From: Chrysoporthe austroafricana
Taxonomy: Eukaryota; Ascomycota; Sordariomycetes; Diaporthales; Cryphonectriaceae
NCBI GenBank assembly: GCA_001051155.2
Contig: JYIP02000005.1
Span: forward strand, 2,108,001 to 2,172,000
Length of the DNA: 64,000 nucleotides
Direction of reading: 5' to 3'
In this document: in pieces, positions 8,962 to 28,660 of the stretch
Position numbering within the stretch: position 1 is the stretch's first letter
Layout: each line of letters starts with the position of its first letter
Translations under genes and position numbers: made by a program
Notes under the pieces: model-generated
Told to the model about the DNA's origin: nothing
Databases searched by the model: none
What the model saw: only the letters and a program-made list of their open reading frames with translations

Positions 8962-11763
8962 ATGGCTGCCTCCTACTCAACCTCGGCCCCTGCGAGCTCT
9001 TTCAGAGGTCGCCTCGACGGCTACTTGCCCATCGAGGACTACGGCCTCATCGGGAACCTGAGGACAGCTGCCCTGGTCGGAATGGACGGCAGCTGTGACT
9101 TCATGTGCTGGTGAGGAACAGCAAAACTCACCCATACTGCTCACTTCCTCGTCTGATTCTCTCCCTAGGCCCGACTTCGACTCTCCCAGTATTTTCTGCC
9201 GCCTTCTGGACAAGAACAAGGGCGGTCACTTCAGCATCTCGCCGCCGTCGAGCATCACCTGCACCACCAAGCAGAGCTACCTGCCCTCCTCCAATATACT
9301 ACAGACACGCTACATCAACGAGGATGGCGTTGCGGACCTGGTGGACTTCTTCCCGCGGGTGAGCAGCTTCTTTTTCCTCCACCAGTGCCCGTCTCCATGC
9401 TCTTAGAATTACAGCGTATGGCACGAAAGTCTGCACATTGTGAGACTTTGGTGTGAGGCAGGGTACTAATAATTACTAGCCACGCACATCAACTGTGCCG
9501 GTTTCACATTCGAGAGGTCGCCACTCGGCCTTCCGTGAGGCGCAGATTGTCCAGGAAGAGCTGAAGAAGTGGCTCGTCCGACGGGTAGAGTGTATCAGGG
9601 GCAAGATCTCGCTAGATGTGGAGATCTTCCCTGCGCTGGGATATGCTAAGGAGAAACATGTCACAACGGTGCTGCAGGCGATACACGAGCCAGGGATGGC
9701 GTCCAAGGCCGTTACTTTCCATAGCGTCGAGAGGTGCGGCCTGAAGTTGCAGTTGGATGTCACAATCGACAAAGGTGAAGATGATGCGGAAAATTGTCCC
9801 GTGGTGACGTTTCAAAAGGTGATGAGGAACGGCATGGTGAGCGAGGGTGTCGTAACGCATGTCACGCTGCAGGAGGGCCAGGCCGTCTCCTTCACGCTCA
9901 GGGACGACCTTGAGAGCCACATCACGGCCAACATCACGACTGCTGATCTTGACAAGCAGCAGAACGACACGCAGACGTTCTGGTACAACTGGATCTCGAA
10001 GTGTAAGTACAGGGGAAGATGGATGGAGGTCGTCACGCGGAGCCTGATGATCCTCAAGCTGTTGACGTACGAGCCGACCGGCGCAATCGTCGCCGCGCCG
10101 ACGTTCTCCGTGCCGGAGGAAATTGGGGGCCCGAGGAATTGGGACTATCGGTATTCCTGGGTGAGAGACTCGAGTTTCACGATTTACATCTTGCTCCGCC
10201 TTGGGTTCGTCGAGGAGGCAGATGCGTACATGGGCTTCATCAACCAGCGCATTCTAAATTCCCGGACGCCTGATGGGGGCCTGCCGATCATGTTCACGAT
10301 CCGAGGCGAGACCGACATACCGGAGCTGGAGCTAGACCACCTAGAGGGTTACAGGGGCTCAAAGCCAGTGCGCATCGGAAATGGAGCGGCATTCCACCAG
10401 CAGTTCGATATCTACGGAGAGCTGATGGACGCGGTCTACCTGAACAACAAGTACGGAAAGCCTGTGACTTGGGACACCTGGGTGTCCGTGCGAAAGCTGC
10501 TTGGTAAAGTACTCGTTGCGTGATTCCGCCTTGGACGTTGCTGACCCTGGTGCAGATTATGTTCTGACTATCATGAATGGTAGGCCGGATACTACAGAGC
10601 TTGTTCCTTGGCTTGAGGCGAGACGCTGACTTCTAGCAGATCCTGATATGTCCATATGGGAGGTGCGGAACAAAAAACAGAACTTTGTCTACTCAAAAGT
10701 CATGCTCTGGGTGGCGTTCGACCGCGGCCTGCGTCTAGCAGAAAAGAGAACTCTCCCCTGTCCCAATAGGAACAAGTGGCTCGAAGCCAGAGAAAGTCTT
10801 TATGAGGAGATCATGGAGAAAGGTGAGAGACTTAGTTTATCCTCCCGTCCTCGAATCCTAGCATTTTGCCATGTTACCCTCTTCACCTCCTTGCGCCGTG
10901 CGACTATGTCTTCTGCGGGCGCTCTCTGTCTATCTTCATCTCTCCTGCCTAGCAAATACGCATCATCCCGGGTCACATACCACTACAACCTCTCCCGGAA
11001 AGGAAGAAAAAAGAATGGCAAAGACGATCAGCCACCCGAAGCAACAGCCAAATCTTCAACATGGTCAAGAAGGACGCCCTCTACCAATCTAGCCCTCTGA
11101 CAAGAGCATTTAGGATATAATACGGAGATGAAATGCTTCATCCAGAGCTACGAGAACCGCACAATGCTGGATTCTTCTATCCTGATAGCACCCCTAGTCT
11201 TCTTCATTACTCCAAACGACCCTCGCTTCCTCAACACAATGGACCGCATCCTGCTGCCTCCCGAGAGGGGCGGCTTGACGTCCACGGGTCTGGTGTACCG
11301 CTACGATACTGAGCTCTCTGATGACGGTAACAGCGTCCCTAAGCCTCCTCAACAGCGAAGACCACGGCTCAGCAGATCAGTGCTGACGTGTGAACACAGG
11401 TGTGGGAGGACGAGAGGGCGCTTTCTCTATGTGCACGTTCTGGCTGGTCGAGGCTCTCACAAGAGCTAGCGTCTACGACGCCAAGTACCTCCCGCGTGCT
11501 GTCAATCTGTTTGAGAACATGTTGACCTTCTCAAATCACTTGCACATGTTCTCAGAGGAGATCTCCCGCAGCGGCGAGCAGCTCGGGAACACGCCCCAGG
11601 CCTTCAGTCATCTCGCACTCATTAGTGCTGCTTTCAAGTGAGCTACCTTTTCTACATTTCCTATCATTTCTCGTCTTGACTCGAAGCAACCTGGCTTGTA
11701 ACCATGAGCCAAATTCTGATTGAATATCCTAGTCTGGACCGTGTATCCGTCCACCAGCCCTGA
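8962..11763 (+). CDS. GH15 trehalase/glucoamylase-like glycoside hydrolase
   Basis: Eight exons (8962-9110, 9169-9358, 9480-10503, 10556-10579, 10640-10822, 11114-11326, 11400-11637, 11733-11763) join in frame to 683 residues. The N-terminal third matches the N-terminal domain of bacterial-type GH15 trehalases ([20 protein letters not shown] and [15 protein letters not shown]). The (alpha/alpha)6 catalytic part has [13 protein letters not shown] (~333-345) and [20 protein letters not shown] (~643-662), which carry the usual acid and base regions of the family. No signal peptide is visible, so the enzyme is probably cytosolic and not a secreted amylase. The family cleaves terminal alpha-glucosidic bonds; trehalose, maltose or a related glucan could be the substrate. 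Exon 4 is only 24 nt and intron 5 is unusually long (291 nt). The last exon is 31 nt and ends LDRVSVHQP. Confidence 0.9.
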
Positions 11764-13543: not shown

Positions 13544-14185
13544 CTTCGTGAAAACCTCAAGGTTGGAGCTTCGCGTTTTGTGTGGTGAGTCCCTAGTGGC
13601 AGATTGTGATGGAGGCCTGAGCTTCGAAATTCCAAACCATGGTCAAGCCGGGTGCGCTTCCGCACCCACCAATCCTTCCAAGGGTTGCGCTGATGAGGTT
13701 GTGTAGCTGTGAGGTTAGTGAGGTAGGTTCCTGAGCTGAAAGCCGCTGTCAGAAGCTTGCGGCTGCAGCTGTTGCGGCTCAAGAGCAGGAGCAGGGACCA
13801 GGATTGCCCAACCAGGCCCCACTTTCCCCGGGCGGAGCTTCTTTACGTCGCCTGCCCAGAAATGGCCATGGAGCCGTTGTTCGCGACTTCAACTGGCACT
13901 TGCATCGAACTCCCGACTCACCCGCTTCGCATATCGGCTCATTCTCGGCCGCAGCTACCAAACAAATCGCTCTTCGTACGAATCTTCAGAGCTGACGCTC
14001 TATCAGCGATCTTTCCTACTCATGATCGATCCCTCGATTTCGAAAAGCGCATGAAAAGCCGTCGCACACACCTGTAGAGAGAGCACCGTGCTCGAATCGA
14101 CCGAGCTTCGGGCGGCGCATATTCGCATGACTTTCCACATTGCCTCACTCGACCTCTACAAAGTATCTGGCAGCGGACCGTCATC
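13544..14185. promoter_or_regulatory. Shared divergent promoter region of the histone-fold gene and TAF7
   Basis: These 642 bases separate the start codons of two divergent genes, so both core promoters and 5' UTRs must lie here. No shared operator or palindrome stood out. Confidence 0.55.
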
Positions 14186-15925
14186 ATGGAGGGGCCTAAG
14201 AAGACTCTCAAGCTGAAGATCAGCAGAACCCCATCTGCGTCTTCCAACAAGACCCCTTCTGCCTCCCACAACCCACCTCCCTCGCTCTTCGGTCAACCTG
14301 TCGCAACGCCGGACGCGATGTCTCCCCCCTCGTCATACTTTCCTACTTTTTCAGCAGCCAAGTCTCCCCCTGCTGGATCCTCAGCTGCCCCGCCTGCGCC
14401 AGACTCTGCGACCATGCCGCCGCCGGCAATACCTCCTACGCCCACCGACGGCAGACCCAAGATCAAGCTCAAAGTGAACCGAAGTCAGCCAGCGACACCC
14501 GTTACCGAAAACGCTCCATCCCGAACCCCTTTGCCATCTCGGACCCCTCTCCCCGGGAAAGCGCCGCCTACGGAGCCTCCAGTGGCGCCCGCGACGACGA
14601 CGAAGGCAGGACGGACCCTGAAGCCCACTGCGAAGAAGCGCGCTAAGAACGACGCCGGCAGTGGCTCTGAGGATGAGGCAGACCGAAACCAGCAGCCACC
14701 CACCAAGAAGCGTCCTATCCTCAAGACGAGGATCCCGGTCCAGGGGGCAAGCCAGGTTCGGAAGATTTCCCTGAAGGACAAACTCACGTCGAGCAATGTC
14801 GTCCGGCAGCCTGGGTCGGGCTTCGATTCCGAAATGGAGGATGCCGAGTCGGATCCTATCACAGAGGAAGAGATCGTGTTCCGCATGATGGAAGGGCCTG
14901 AGTGCGACTACATCAACGAGTGTTTGAATGCTAAGCATAAGAAGTTCCCGTCGGGCGGGAACATGGAGTTCAGACTCAAGTGGGTGGACGAGCGCAGGGC
15001 GGCTGTCACTGTGCAGACTCAAATGTTCGCGGCCGTCCTGGTCGACTTGCCAACTATCACCGAGGCTACGAAGACCTGGGACAAGAAGCTTGTGATCAAA
15101 TCGGCCGACATCTGTCAGATGCTCCTTGTATTCAAGAGAATCACCCGGGAAGAAGAGGCAAAGACTGCCGAGCTTCCCAACGTCCTCTTTGATGGGTACA
15201 GGTGGCCCCACGGACTGACACCCCCCATGCACGACGCAGTTCACCGCAGATTCCGCAAGCGCTTGCACAAGAGTGAGATTGACAACAAGGAGAAGGAAGT
15301 CGAAAGGCTTCTGAAGGCCGATAAGGCTGCCATAAGGACCCGCTTTGAATTCATCGGCGAGCGGCGGGGCACCATGCAGATCGACACTCCGGATGCCGAC
15401 ATGCTTGACGCAGACGGGGAGGAGGACGCTGAGGGCGAGATTGAGGAGATCGCCGGACATGACGGCTTCGAGCATGGTGACCTTGAGGCGGAACTGCAAC
15501 GCGAGCTGGACGCGAGTATGGAAGATGCATTTGTCATGGACACACCGGCTGAAGAGGGCGCTACACCTCTTGCCTCTGCCGAAACGCCGGCTGCGGCGAC
15601 TCAGTCCGGAGAGATCCAAGGCCAAGACGAGCTGTTTGGCGACGGCGAGAGCGGAGAGGACTACGATGATGACGACGAGGAGTCTGACGAGGACCTGGAT
15701 CCGGCGGAGAGGGAACGGCGTGAGCAGATCAGAGGCGTCCGGGACGAAGTTAAGGACATCGGCCGGCAAATTGCGGAGCTCAAGAGCCGAATGCAGCAGC
15801 CCGGTGCGCAGAACCCTCTCATCAGAGGGAAGCTGCAAACACGGCTCAAGGGTCTCAATGAGGACATGCGGCTCAAACTGGCCTCGATCGGAGAGGAGCC
15901 ACCGGAGGACGAGGATGACGATTAG
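14186..15925 (+). CDS. TAF7: TFIID subunit 7 (TAFII55-type)
   Basis: A single-exon frame of 579 residues. Residues 1-~225 are Pro/Ser/Lys-rich and disordered, with repeated basic patches (KTLKLKISR, PKIKLKVNR). The TAFII55 domain spans about 228-362: EEIVFRMMEGPECDYINECL, then FAAVLVDLPTITEATKTWDK and IKSADICQMLLVF, closing with DGYRWPHGLTPPMHDAVHRR. These are diagnostic of TAF7, which binds TAF1 and restrains its acetyltransferase activity in TFIID. The C-terminal third is very acidic (DDDDEESDEDLDPAERERRE) and then forms a likely coiled coil (GVRDEVKDIGRQIAELKSRM). The ATG is followed directly by the basic MEGPKKTLKLK start and no upstream in-frame ATG is evident. It is nuclear by family. 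Confidence 0.95.
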   Translation: MEGPKKTLKLKISRTPSASSNKTPSASHNPPPSLFGQPVATPDAMSPPSSYFPTFSAAKSPPAGSSAAPPAPDSATMPPPAIPPTPTDGRPKIKLKVNRSQPATPVTENAPSRTPLPSRTPLPGKAPPTEPPVAPATTTKAGRTLKPTAKKRAKNDAGSGSEDEADRNQQPPTKKRPILKTRIPVQGASQVRKISLKDKLTSSNVVRQPGSGFDSEMEDAESDPITEEEIVFRMMEGPECDYINECLNAKHKKFPSGGNMEFRLKWVDERRAAVTVQTQMFAAVLVDLPTITEATKTWDKKLVIKSADICQMLLVFKRITREEEAKTAELPNVLFDGYRWPHGLTPPMHDAVHRRFRKRLHKSEIDNKEKEVERLLKADKAAIRTRFEFIGERRGTMQIDTPDADMLDADGEEDAEGEIEEIAGHDGFEHGDLEAELQRELDASMEDAFVMDTPAEEGATPLASAETPAAATQSGEIQGQDELFGDGESGEDYDDDDEESDEDLDPAERERREQIRGVRDEVKDIGRQIAELKSRMQQPGAQNPLIRGKLQTRLKGLNEDMRLKLASIGEEPPEDEDDD

Positions 15926-22458: not shown

Positions 22459-23939
22459 ATGGCCGCCCCTCAGCAGCAGAGCCAGCCTGGAGGCGGCGGC
22501 GCTCGCCTAAGCCGCGCTTCTGCATCCGATCCTACTTCGGTCGCAGACAGCATCTCGAGGGACCCTACAGAGGCAGCGTCGCAGATTCGGCGCTATGACG
22601 GTCAGTCGCCAGCGAGAAATAGCATCTGTCTGCGCCGCGTTATCGGCCCCGGAGGTGTGCTCGTCATCAGCCGCAGCTAACAGCAACTGCAGAATCATGG
22701 GTCGAGATCTCGTCCCAGCCGTCCTCCTCCTCCCTCTCTTCCATCGGCGACGACATCGTCACCACCGGCCTGCGGGTCGGCAACCAGTCCTACCCGCCCC
22801 GCCGAAGGCGACTGCAACACCACTACCACCAGTCCGTGCAACAGCAGATGCCCCAGTCCTACCTTGTGAACCCTGCCACGGCGCGGTCGGGCACGAGCAG
22901 CCAAGAGGAGTACGACGAGACCGAGAGCGAGGAAGATCGCATGATGACTTCGTCTACCGAAAATATGGACACAAGACCTGGACTCGGCCTGCGGCGGTCG
23001 CAGACCGCGATTGGTCCTGGCGCCGACCTGTCTGACTCGGAGGAGGACGACGATGGTACCGCCCTCGGCCGGCCGTCGCCGACGCAGAGCTTCCGGCCGC
23101 AGCCTAATGCGTTTTCGCACCCGCCTGCCCACCTGAACCAGCGCAGCTACTCCACCAACGCGGCCATACCGCCACACCACCTCCCTGGGAGACCATCACC
23201 GGCATCTCACAGGTCGCACAACCGTGCCCGCGCTGACTTCAGGAACCCGTCCTACCAAGCCGACCGGGATGAGGCGCTGCGCGCATCTCTCACGACCCTC
23301 CTCTCTTGCGCAGCCGCCGCTAAGAGCCTGCCGGGGCGGAGGAACCATATCGCTAGCGATCCCTCTTCAGGAGAGCCGATGATGGGCCCGGGCGTTGGCC
23401 CGAGCACGCAGCCGATGGAGCTGAGGCTGGTCCCGGAGTCGGATCTGGGAAATGAAAACTCACCGCTTGTTGGTCCCGCCGTACCAAAGTCATCCCCGCG
23501 ATCAGGCCAGCCCACGACCCGGACTTCGTCCAATTCGAGTGCGCAGAGCCAACCTGCGTCCGTCTCATCCAAGGAGGAGAAGTACAAAAGGACTGCGTCC
23601 GCGGGACAGCCCAGGTCGCAGAGGGCGGCCAAGAAGAAGAGGGCATCTGTGTCGGCCTTGGACGACAGCACTGTGACCTGGATCAGCCCTGCGACTCTTA
23701 CTTGGGTGCTTGGCACTGGCGTCGTACTGCTGGTTTCCGTCGTGGGCTTTGGCGCCGGATTCGTGGTCGGCCGCGAGGTCGGCCGGCAGGATATCCTCAG
23801 CTCGGCGAGCGGAACCGGAAGCATGAGCGCGGGAGTGAACTCGTCGTCATGTGGCGGCGAGGTCATACGCAGCACCGGCACGGGCACGTTGAAGAGGTGG
23901 CGATGGGGTACCGGCATGGCCCGAAGTGTGATCGCCTAG
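22459..23939 (+). CDS. Uncharacterised C-tail membrane protein with WVEI motif; candidate BNIP3/NIX-like receptor
   Basis: Two exons (22459-22600, 22693-23939; 92-nt intron GTCAGT..GCAG) give 462 residues. The splice builds ESWVEISSQPSSSS at residues 48-61, where W50-V-E-I53 fits the Atg8-interacting (LIR/AIM) consensus and is flanked by acid and Ser residues. A long disordered Ser/Pro/Arg region follows, with an acidic patch (DLSDSEEDDD), a conserved-looking helix DEALRASLTTLLSCAAAAKS and basic AAKKKR. One membrane helix spans about 385-407 and carries G399, G401, G403 and G407 followed by R408; a ~55-residue tail follows. There is no signal peptide. The plan (N-terminal LIR, disorder, C-terminal glycine-zipper helix) matches the animal mitophagy receptors BNIP3 and NIX as I remember them. 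I see no other family signature. The gene is well supported; the receptor role is a hypothesis. Confidence 0.85.
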
Positions 23940-26540: not shown

Positions 26541-28292
26541 TCATTTCTTCCCAGTCGTGCTGCCCAGCGCCTCTCGCGCCGGCTCCATCGCCCCCTCCGG
26601 CCGCTGCTCCGCCCCGTCAACAGCCTCCTGCCGACGCTGCGCTTCCTTGGCGAGCCTCCACCGCCCCTCGGCGAGCGAGGCGCAGCCCATGCCCGTCAGC
26701 ATGCCCGCCAGGTGCGACATCCAGTCGACGCCGCCGCCCTGGCCCCGCACCATGGGCACGAGCGCGAAGAAGGCCATGATCAGCCCGATGATGCCGAGCC
26801 CCTGCAGGCCTTCGTACGGGTCCGGCGGCAGGCCCAGGATCTTGAACCCGTCGAACCGGTACAGCCAGAAGTACGCGCAGATGGCGCCGAAGCCGGCCGA
26901 CGACGCGCCGAACATGTAGACGAGCTCCCCGCGCAGCGCGACGCGCGTCCACAGCGTCGCCAGGTACCCGCACATGCCGGACGCGGCGTACGTGGCGAGG
27001 AACGGCACGGGCCCGACCTCGGGGACGAGGAGCATCCCGCCGGCCCAGGCGAGGAACATGGCCTTCAGCAGGTGACGCGGGTCCTGGTGCGTCACCATCG
27101 CGGTGAGGATCTGGTGCGGCCGCGGCGCGACGAAGTCCAGGATGAAGTGCCTGTTGAGGTACTTCCACAGGCGGACGCGCCGCCAGGCGACGAACACCGC
27201 GGCGTTGACGAGCGCGATCGCGCCGACGGTGATGCCCGCCTCGGTGAGGCCGCCGCCGCCCACCTCCCGGCCCGGCCGCGGCGGCGCGACGAGGGACACG
27301 ACCGCGAAGAGCGCGGCCAGCACCGCGGCGACGAACGCCGTCATGGGCAGCAGCACGCGCCAGCGCGGGACGTCGGGCGGCGCGGGCAGGTCCGACGTGG
27401 CGGCCTCGTAGTGCTCGAGCTGCTTGGGGTGGAGGCCGCGGTGCAGTGCCGGGTCGTACGCCGCCAGGCCGCCCCAATTCTGCGCGGCGGCCGCCTCCTC
27501 CTGCCGCTGGCGCTCGGCCTCGGCGCGCTCCTCGGCCTCGCGGCGCGCGATGTTGCCGGCCCGGATCTTGTCGAGGATACTCTCGCCATAGACGGCGCGC
27601 GGGTTGTCATCCTTCTTCTGCTTCACGGCCCCGTCCTCTCCTGCGCCCGTGGCCGGGGGCTTCCCACCGCTGGTCTCCTCGGCCGCGGCGCTGTCCGCCT
27701 CCAGCTCCCGCAGCTCGTCCTCCGCCCTCAGGCCCGCGTTCAGCACCTCGTCCACGGGCACCTCCTTCCGCAGGTACTCCAGGGCCTTTTGGATCTCTCG
27801 CGGGGTGTAGGCGGCGGTGTTCACCCGGAGGGACGGGTCGTCCAGCGTCCCGGCGACCCGGCGCCCGTGCAGGATCCTGAGCAGCTTCGTCGCGCGGGCG
27901 GGCGTCATGTCCGCGAAGCCTGGGAAGATGCGGACCGTGGTCGGCATGTCGAGCTCGGCCTCCTTCTGGAAGGGCAGGCCTTCTGAATCCTTGTAGTCTG
28001 GAGGGAGATGGACGTAGTGGGTGAGAACCGTCTGTGTGAAGCCGAAGAGGGTGCGCCTCTGCGGCTCACGGCGGATTCCTGCTGGGCGCCATTGCTGTTG
28101 TAGCGCCTGCAGGGGCGAGGCAGTTGGATGCTCGGGGCCATGACACCTCGAGAGTGCCCATACTGAGATGCACCGCGCTGAGCCCACGAGCGGCGCGAAG
28201 CGCGTCGGTGACCTGATTCGAGCCTGCTGCCGCAGAGCTCGCTCGAGGCTCGGGCCCGACCGGAGGCAGCTGAACCCGAGGAAGGTGCTCAT
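26541..28292 (-). CDS. Rhomboid-family membrane protein, probably mitochondrial
   Basis: A single-exon frame of 583 residues. The N-terminus is Arg/Ser-rich and lacks acidic residues for the first ~17 positions, fitting a mitochondrial presequence. Residues ~80-310 are a soluble region with charged helices (REAEERAEAERQRQEEAAAA). About seven membrane segments follow from ~325. The rhomboid core is visible as RHLLKAMFLAWAGGMLL, then YMFGASSAGFGAICAYFWLY with the likely nucleophile Ser of GAS, and WMSHLAGMLTGMG with the likely catalytic His. Canonical rhomboids read GxSG; here the next residue is Ser (GASS), so activity is likely but not certain. The 1+6 layout recalls PARL/Pcp1-type intramembrane proteases. 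Its substrate is unknown. Confidence 0.88.
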   Translation of the reverse strand: MSTFLGFSCLRSGPSLERALRQQARIRSPTRFAPLVGSARCISVWALSRCHGPEHPTASPLQALQQQWRPAGIRREPQRRTLFGFTQTVLTHYVHLPPDYKDSEGLPFQKEAELDMPTTVRIFPGFADMTPARATKLLRILHGRRVAGTLDDPSLRVNTAAYTPREIQKALEYLRKEVPVDEVLNAGLRAEDELRELEADSAAAEETSGGKPPATGAGEDGAVKQKKDDNPRAVYGESILDKIRAGNIARREAEERAEAERQRQEEAAAAQNWGGLAAYDPALHRGLHPKQLEHYEAATSDLPAPPDVPRWRVLLPMTAFVAAVLAALFAVVSLVAPPRPGREVGGGGLTEAGITVGAIALVNAAVFVAWRRVRLWKYLNRHFILDFVAPRPHQILTAMVTHQDPRHLLKAMFLAWAGGMLLVPEVGPVPFLATYAASGMCGYLATLWTRVALRGELVYMFGASSAGFGAICAYFWLYRFDGFKILGLPPDPYEGLQGLGIIGLIMAFFALVPMVRGQGGGVDWMSHLAGMLTGMGCASLAEGRWRLAKEAQRRQEAVDGAEQRPEGAMEPAREALGSTTGKK

Positions 28293-28660
28293 ATCGCCAT
28301 CGAGTATGCCAGGTTACCGCATGGTCTGATTGGGTACACGATCATCAGATGAGGTGCTGAGGAGCTGGTTGTCGCATCTGCCTAAGTAATTACTGTGTGG
28401 TGAGATCTATGAAGCCTGAAGAAAATTTGCCTGCCGAGACCCCTGCAGAACCACAAGAACCCAGCGAGCGAGGGTTGCGAGCCGAACCGCCGGCCCCACC
28501 CCACGCACGTTGGACCCCAGCTCACTCTTACATGCCTTGTGTGGGTTGTGTTCATTCATTGCGATATCTATATCTATGTCATTTTCCCCTCCTCTCCTCA
28601 GATCGTTGAAAAAAACAAAAAAAAAACTTGCGATCCCTCGTCTAGGCTGTCTACCGATCC
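28293..28660. other. Spacer between rhomboid gene start and GMP synthase 3' end
   Basis: Both neighbours are on the minus strand; this holds the rhomboid promoter and GMP synthase 3' UTR. A run of A (28610-28626) is present. No gene is seen. Confidence 0.5.

Follow-up and report, generated by a model that had tools for sequence, protein, structure and literature searches.

Does the fungus Chrysoporthe austroafricana possess a relative of the mitophagy receptors BNIP3 and NIX, as the original prediction proposed for a gene encoding an N-terminal SWVEI motif and a glycine-rich C-terminal membrane helix, and if the resemblance is not one of kinship, what might such a protein do? The gene lies within a stretch of 64,000 nucleotides (contig JYIP02000005.1, positions 2,108,001 to 2,172,000; hereafter the window) and comprises two exons on the forward strand (Table 1), whose sequence-inferred splice yields a product of 462 amino acids. 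Splicing was said to complete the residue preceding the candidate LIR, and indeed the codon of E48 is split by the intron with SWVEI following directly; the junction region (RRND-ESWVEI) is identical in P0001, the orthologue from Cryphonectria parasitica. The gene is single copy, its sole match in the 48.15-Mb, 22-contig assembly being itself.

The spliced translation bears out most of the anatomy that had been described. SWVEI occupies residues 49-53 and is followed by SSQPSSSS, the C-terminal membrane helix carries exactly G399-F-G401-A-G403-F-V-V-G407-R408, and the N-terminus is not hydrophobic (maximum 9-residue Kyte-Doolittle value of 0.26 over the first 40 amino acids), consistent with the claimed lack of a signal peptide. 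The tail, by contrast, had been called short and instead extends 55 residues past G407. A single strongly hydrophobic segment was found (residues 377-410, Kyte-Doolittle peak 2.15), and among 64 family rows one such segment was present in 57, the other seven giving overlapping windows on the same stretch. AlphaFold2 modelling of exon 2 (residues 48-462, where residue number equals exon-2 position plus 47; 64 sequences) returned a low-confidence model, with a mean pLDDT of 47.9 and two helices only, at 233-257 and 380-406. Thus, the rest of the protein, the LIR region included, is probably disordered.

Table 1 Features of the candidate receptor gene, its neighbours in the window and the ATG43 gene of the same genome
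Feature	Position	Strand	Details or basis
Exon 1	22459..22600	+	ATG at 22459; residues 1-47 and first base of codon 48
Intron	22601..22692	+	92 nt, GTCAGT...CTGCAG
Exon 2 and stop codon	22693..23939	+	Open frame
SWVEI, residues 49-53, candidate LIR/AIM	22695..22709	+	Motif and conservation
SQPSSSSLSSIGDDIVTTGL, residues 55-74, near-invariant Ser-rich block adjoining the LIR	22713..22772	+	Conservation
TSSQEEYDETESEEDRMMTSSTE, residues 115-137, acidic Ser-rich conserved block	22893..22961	+	CK2-type sites by eye
FRPQPNAFSHPP, residues 181-192, linear conserved block	23091..23126	+	Conservation
Residues 233-257 including ALRASLTTLLSCAAAAKSL, conserved predicted helix	23247..23321	+	Conservation and structure model
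Single transmembrane helix, residues 380-406	23688..23768	+	Hydropathy and structure model
GFGAGFVVGR, residues 399-408, small-xxx-G-xxx-G-[RK] packing motif	23745..23774	+	
C-terminal tail, 55 residues, 408-462, proposed lumenal	23772..23936	+	
N430-S-S, tail N-glycosylation sequon	23838..23846	+	Sequon census
C434, conserved tail cysteine	23850..23852	+	Conservation
Rhomboid domain	26544-28313	-	Neighbouring frame with Pfam match
TAFII55	14078-15922	+	Neighbouring frame with Pfam match
Glycosyl hydrolase family 15	9480-10520	+	Neighbouring frame with Pfam match
ATG43 (PF08589) gene, L002	G000:C17:3926646-3926927		Profile match in the same genome

Three protein searches returned 1452 (E<=0.001), 228 (E<=10) and 1234 (E<=0.001) matches, with listings confined to the best 120 of each search; 351 sequences among the matches listed, together with the window protein, form the family set of 352. 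The lists are score-ranked and include close relatives, and many of the listed proteins carry no organism. The nearest match among those listed is from Cryphonectria parasitica (83%). Seven named sources among the matches listed fall by taxonomy in six classes of the Pezizomycotina, namely Sordariomycetes (Cryphonectria parasitica), Leotiomycetes (Hyaloscypha), Eurotiomycetes (Penicillium), Dothideomycetes (Dendryphion), Candelariomycetes (Candelaria, Pycnora) and Xylonomycetes (Xylona). Members are mostly named hypothetical, uncharacterized or unnamed protein; the labels REJ domain (two uniref entries) and CobN (two JGI entries) were taken as automatic mislabels, and other Pfam matches among members look compositional, the best being RR_TM4-6 (E=0.0005, 3 of 55 members). 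We recognised no description of the family in literature searches, in which model-species locus names were left untranslated, so that it may be in print under one of these; a search by the locus names of six family members retrieved no paper.

The proposed kinship with BNIP3 and NIX did not survive comparison. No Pfam family other than BNIP3 (PF06553) was listed for the spliced window protein, a circumstance that might favor a true, if very diverged, member of that family; however, the BNIP3 score of 9.5 bits (E=0.99) falls below the curated cut-off of 26 bits, and just one of 55 family members matches the model (E=2.9). The same model found nothing at E<=10 in the six-frame translated genome, in a search run without a positive control. 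The family HMM scored NIX at 0.3 and BNIP3 at -2.3 bits, and profile-profile comparison by HHalign, in which the BNIP3 side consisted of only two human sequences, recognised by Pfam as BNIP3, gave a probability of 0.56% (E=0.1) over 17 columns. No significant alignment of NIX or BNIP3 with the family was obtained anywhere, including the minimal essential region that binds WIPI2/3. When solved chains were searched with the helix profile, the BNIP3 helices 2j5d and 2ka1 were absent from the matches at E<=10, though both are in the library; photosystem PsaK, which appeared at E=0.02 in the PDB search with the helix alone, was taken as a hydrophobic chance match, and the whole-family profile matched nothing in the PDB. 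A 2017 survey reports no BNIP3 domain in fungi.

What remains on the side of descent is that the motifs occur in the same order, that the best HHalign segment pairs LVSVVGFGAGFVVGREV with NIX LSHVLALGLGIYIGKRL with the helix motifs in register, and that the ungapped helix score beats 2000 shuffles (p=0.01 for BNIP3, 0.04 for NIX), a signal that is suggestive only, the score having been chosen after the match was seen. We consider membership in the BNIP3/NIX family very improbable, and the resemblance is best read as convergence. The points of likeness are an N-terminal SWVE[LI] LIR with serine at -1 and a single C-terminal helix with small-xxx-G-xxx-G-[RK]. The fungal protein differs in having no detectable sequence homology and in its 55-residue tail, probably of ER type, with a sequon and a cysteine, where the tail of BNIP3 and NIX has about 10 residues. 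By eye, NIX carries PSSSSIHNGDMEKIL after its LIR where the fungal protein has PSSSSLSSIGDEIV, a similarity of low-complexity serine that was not counted.

LIR-like motifs can be spurious. We anchored family members on the acidic block SSQ[ED]EY..., without using the LIR itself, and set aside 15 sequences with shorter upstream parts; among the 352 sequences, all 186 listed members with at least 60 residues upstream of this anchor have [ST]W-x-x-[ILV] in the same block. The residue at -1 is serine in 185 and threonine in one; the same number, 185, read SWxx[ILV]xSxPS, and P0029 has TWVEI in the same block. These 186 members are not 186 independent cases, because the score-ranked lists of 120 include close relatives. 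In a second census, anchored on the Ser block (a pattern missing from 161 sequences of the family set), W-x-x-[ILV] stands at a fixed offset in 189 of 191 sequences among the matches listed; the two misses are P0012, in which the pattern matched elsewhere and which does have ESWVEIA, and P0230, an N-terminally incomplete fragment. The extended LIR pattern fits 185 of the 189, whereas composition shuffles give 0.21 LIR-type matches per protein, so the conserved placing of the motif exceeds chance.

Conservation within the block is close to complete. Across 64 rows less than 75% identical, S49, W50, S55, P57, S58, S61, S63, S64 and G73 are fixed and E52 is kept in 62; position 53 is I, V or L (36, 25 and 3 rows) and position 51 is V or I (44 and 20). 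Since these rows were picked by LIR and helix patterns, W50, the choices at 51-53, S55 and most helix residues are constrained by construction. Alignment A2, however, comprising 55 hand-picked rows with no motif filter, also has W50, E52 and S55 invariant. Of the residues that the original prediction singled out for conservation, W50, G403 and G407 are kept, whereas position 53 accepts I, V or L and position 399 is G or S.

Because the motif is kept in the same block in every one of the 186 anchored members, it is likely to be a functional Atg8-binding motif. Its layout is that of the published LIRs of BNIP3 (SWVEL), NIX (SWVEL) and optineurin (DS-FVEI), for which activating phosphorylation at -1 is reported (PMC7615515). 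The same source describes some LIRs that double as FIP200-binding FIRs, with the consensus [DEST][DEST][FWYILV]xx[ILV]. A second stretch, DEIVTT, resembles the CCPG1 FIR2 given there (SDIVTL) but fails the FIR consensus at +3 and was rejected. Models for Atg8 and Atg11 match the same genome.

It is conceivable that autophagy is not the main role of the protein, because several further linear blocks, namely SSQEEY, PNAFSHPP and the ALRASL helix, equal the LIR in conservation, and the Ser block that follows the motif varies less than position +3. This could be explained by a secretory-pathway protein of type II, resident in the ER, Golgi, vacuole or plasma membrane and acting in signalling or trafficking; its blocks would dock kinases, phosphatases or adaptors and its LIR would serve its own turnover or be fortuitous. 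Set against such a protein are W50 and the Ser or Thr at -1 in all of the anchored members listed, and the fact that variation at positions 51 and 53 stays within the residues tolerated in LIRs (for position 53, in 189 of 191 without row selection). We regard it as a rather unlikely explanation.

If the protein is a receptor, the question becomes that of its membrane, on which the helix and the tail bear. [GAS]xGxGxxxGR is present in 118 of the 120 first-search proteins (best 120 of 1452) and xFxAG[YFW]xxG[RKY] in 109 of 111 proteins new to the third search (among the best 120 of 1234); G403 and G407 are kept in the family and positions 399 and 401 are G or S. This small-residue motif is a generic packing motif. 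Peak hydropathy of the helix is 1.98-2.42 in the family, as against 1.87-1.91 for NIX and BNIP3. The median net charge across the 64 rows is +6 in the 40 residues preceding the helix versus 0 in the first 10 following it, which mildly favors a cytosolic N-terminus; the argument is weak because the whole tail has a median net charge of +4.

Past G407 the tail runs to 41-68 residues (median 52, 64 rows). A recognisable tail, defined by the helix pattern, a length of 30-80 residues and the presence of W, was obtained from 333 of the 352 sequences, with 19 dropped. Of 153 non-redundant tails, 144 have exactly one cysteine, seven none and two have two. Among the matches listed, N-x-S/T occurs in 118 of 119 first-search (Sordariomycete) tails, P0076 being the exception, and in all 38 of those that are non-redundant. 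A sequon is also present in 60 of 69 further non-redundant tails of the same helix type, and in 11 of 39 non-redundant third-search tails (among the best 120 of 1234). GF-type tails carry it in 89 of 98 cases, where 500 shuffles, which ignore shared descent, average 19.5 and reach at most 33. SF-type tails carry it in 5 of 46 cases by one count and in 8 of 49 by another (shuffles for the 49: mean 2.9, maximum 8). Named third-search sources, their classes read from genus names apart from the taxonomy look-ups, have a sequon in 9 of 11 Leotiomycetes (not Halenospora or Hymenoscyphus), 4 of 4 Sordariomycetes and 1 of 12 others (Emmonsiellopsis). As far as these sequences tell, the sequon is a clade-restricted trait marking Sordariomycetes and Leotiomycetes, which taxonomy groups in one clade.

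The way in which the sequon varies is how a used glycosylation site would be expected to look. Many different residues (A, G, E, T, D, S and others) fill its middle position, and either S or T may close it. Counting from 43 Asn of first-search tails, S/T stands at +2 in 38, at +1 in 13 and at +3 in 30; from 87 Asn of other GF-type tails, the corresponding numbers are 64, 16 and 39. In the cytosolic parts S/T makes up 11-25% at these offsets, with +2, at 25%, like the others. The sequon lies mostly 20-29 residues past the helix, near the cysteine, in Sordariomycetes and about 13 past G407 in the named Leotiomycetes, and has thus moved and yet been kept; the Leotiomycete distance is near the least that glycosylation needs. 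Points against glycosylation are that the sequon is limited to one clade, that descent is shared and that S/T is frequent at +3. Since glycosylation would need the ER lumen, the conserved sequon argues for an ER-lumenal tail and, in turn, for a receptor of the ER or nuclear envelope rather than of mitochondria.

The original prediction of a single-pass organelle autophagy receptor thus stands in part: the single pass, the conserved W-type LIR and the conserved small-residue helix motif are upheld and a receptor is still the best reading, but its placing on mitochondria is argued against by the sequon conserved in Sordariomycetes and Leotiomycetes and by the helix, whose hydrophobicity somewhat exceeds that of the BNIP3 and NIX helices. 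A convergent receptor of the outer mitochondrial membrane, comparable with BNIP3/NIX, Atg32 or Atg43, would expose its LIR to the cytosol and hold its tail in the intermembrane space, where a conserved sequon has no explanation. It would draw on the BNIP3-like LIR layout and small-xxx-G-xxx-G helix, on tails that beyond Sordariomycetes and Leotiomycetes mostly have no sequon, and on reports that Atg32 orthologues are absent from filamentous fungi, which leave a receptor missing. Against it, the protein has no demonstrable family kinship with BNIP3, Atg43 or FUN14, though function does not require kinship. Among receptor readings the ER or nuclear envelope is clearly the preferred site, and we judge a mitochondrial one unlikely, slightly more so than the secretory-pathway protein considered above.

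Atg43 of S. pombe offers a parallel for a mitochondrial receptor, in that it is reported to carry its AIM near the N-terminus and a single helix near the C-terminus, with the C-terminal end protected across the membrane. Orthology was ruled out, because PF08589 finds ATG43 as a separate gene on another contig of the same genome (E=2.5e-38); in the Pfam scan PF08589 was not listed for the window protein or family members. Atg43-like C-termini are reported in fungi (Fukuda 2020). The AIM region of Atg43, unlike that of the window family, is reported to be unconserved beyond Schizosaccharomyces. By eye, the N-terminal exon of ATG43 in the present genome has no obvious AIM, which agrees with the reports confining this AIM to fission yeasts. 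FUN14 (PF04930) was not listed for the window protein, and the genome gave no exon-wise match to it at E<=0.001.

For the protein as a whole we give about an even chance to an unnamed selective autophagy receptor of the ER or nuclear envelope, of the CCPG1/Atg39 kind. CCPG1 is described as a mammalian ER-phagy receptor that spans the membrane, carries both LIR and FIR motifs and places its C-terminal domain in the ER lumen (PMC7681076). The likeness, drawn from description only, consists in a transmembrane protein with a LIR-type motif and a C-terminal part proposed to lie in the ER lumen; in CCPG1 the lumenal part binds cargo, whereas the tail here has only 55 residues. The likening to Atg39, the nucleophagy and perinuclear ER-phagy receptor of S. 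cerevisiae, is also by description only. The lumenal part of Atg39 is longer than the present tail.

LIRs as a class bind Atg8 and become active when phosphorylated at -1, and the Atg11/FIP200 claw can serve as a partner for FIR-type motifs. By extension, when organelle clearance is needed, S49 and the neighbouring Ser and acidic blocks would be phosphorylated, whereupon DES-WVEI could bind Atg8 and perhaps also the Atg11 claw, as a dual LIR/FIR by analogy with optineurin DS-FVEI. Helix packing and the tail cysteine may cluster the receptor, and the phagophore would close round a receptor-bearing piece of membrane, with ER or nuclear envelope as cargo.

The family may already have been glimpsed. 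Kueck and Stein (2021; PMC8226480) searched Sordaria macrospora for Atg32/BCL2L13-like combinations of a C-terminal helix, an AIM/LIR and an acidic cluster; they report 27 genes, six of them confined to euascomycetes, and nominate SMAC_04227, a STRIPAK-dependent phosphoprotein, as a candidate mitophagy receptor of euascomycetes. Because the family has several of the features sought there, SMAC_04227 may be the window family protein. A literature search by that name retrieved no paper besides PMC8226480.

According to reviews, filamentous fungi lack orthologues of the yeast receptors for mitophagy and pexophagy, and one review states that the AIM regions of Epr1 and Atg43 are kept only within fission yeasts, which suggests a fast turnover of such motifs. 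A single-copy gene whose AIM is all but invariant across filamentous ascomycetes would fill the place of a missing membrane receptor. It is tempting to speculate that the family represents a Pezizomycotina-wide, unnamed receptor of the ER or nuclear envelope, in which the LIR has been fixed since before the classes split. The invariant Ser block would then be a phospho-switch governing contact with Atg11 or Atg18, and the tail, lumenal and cysteine-bearing, would be glycosylated within one large clade; this fuller proposal we hold tentatively, as somewhat short of an even chance. If true, it would mean that an AIM can stay constant over deep time and would stand, as a conserved case, against the view that the AIMs of fungal receptors are quickly gained and lost, and the sequon result would shift attention from mitochondria to the ER.

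Some further observations concern the protein and its locus. The ALRASLTTLLSCAAAARGLPK segment, a predicted helix (Table 1), is among the most conserved parts of the family. The F-x-PQPNAFSHPP block (residues 181-192) is nearly invariant in the family, and RFSHLPPIP occurs in ATG43 of the same genome; the similarity is possibly chance or possibly a shared docking motif. Of ten neighbouring long frames scanned, three match Pfam, and the rhomboid, TAFII55 and glycosyl hydrolase family 15 neighbours have no obvious functional link to the gene. Finally, in relatives' gene predictions, LT-like residues directly precede ESWVEI in 63 of 168 cases by a loose pattern, which would fit a widely conserved intron, CTNAC branch site included, immediately ahead of the LIR codons.
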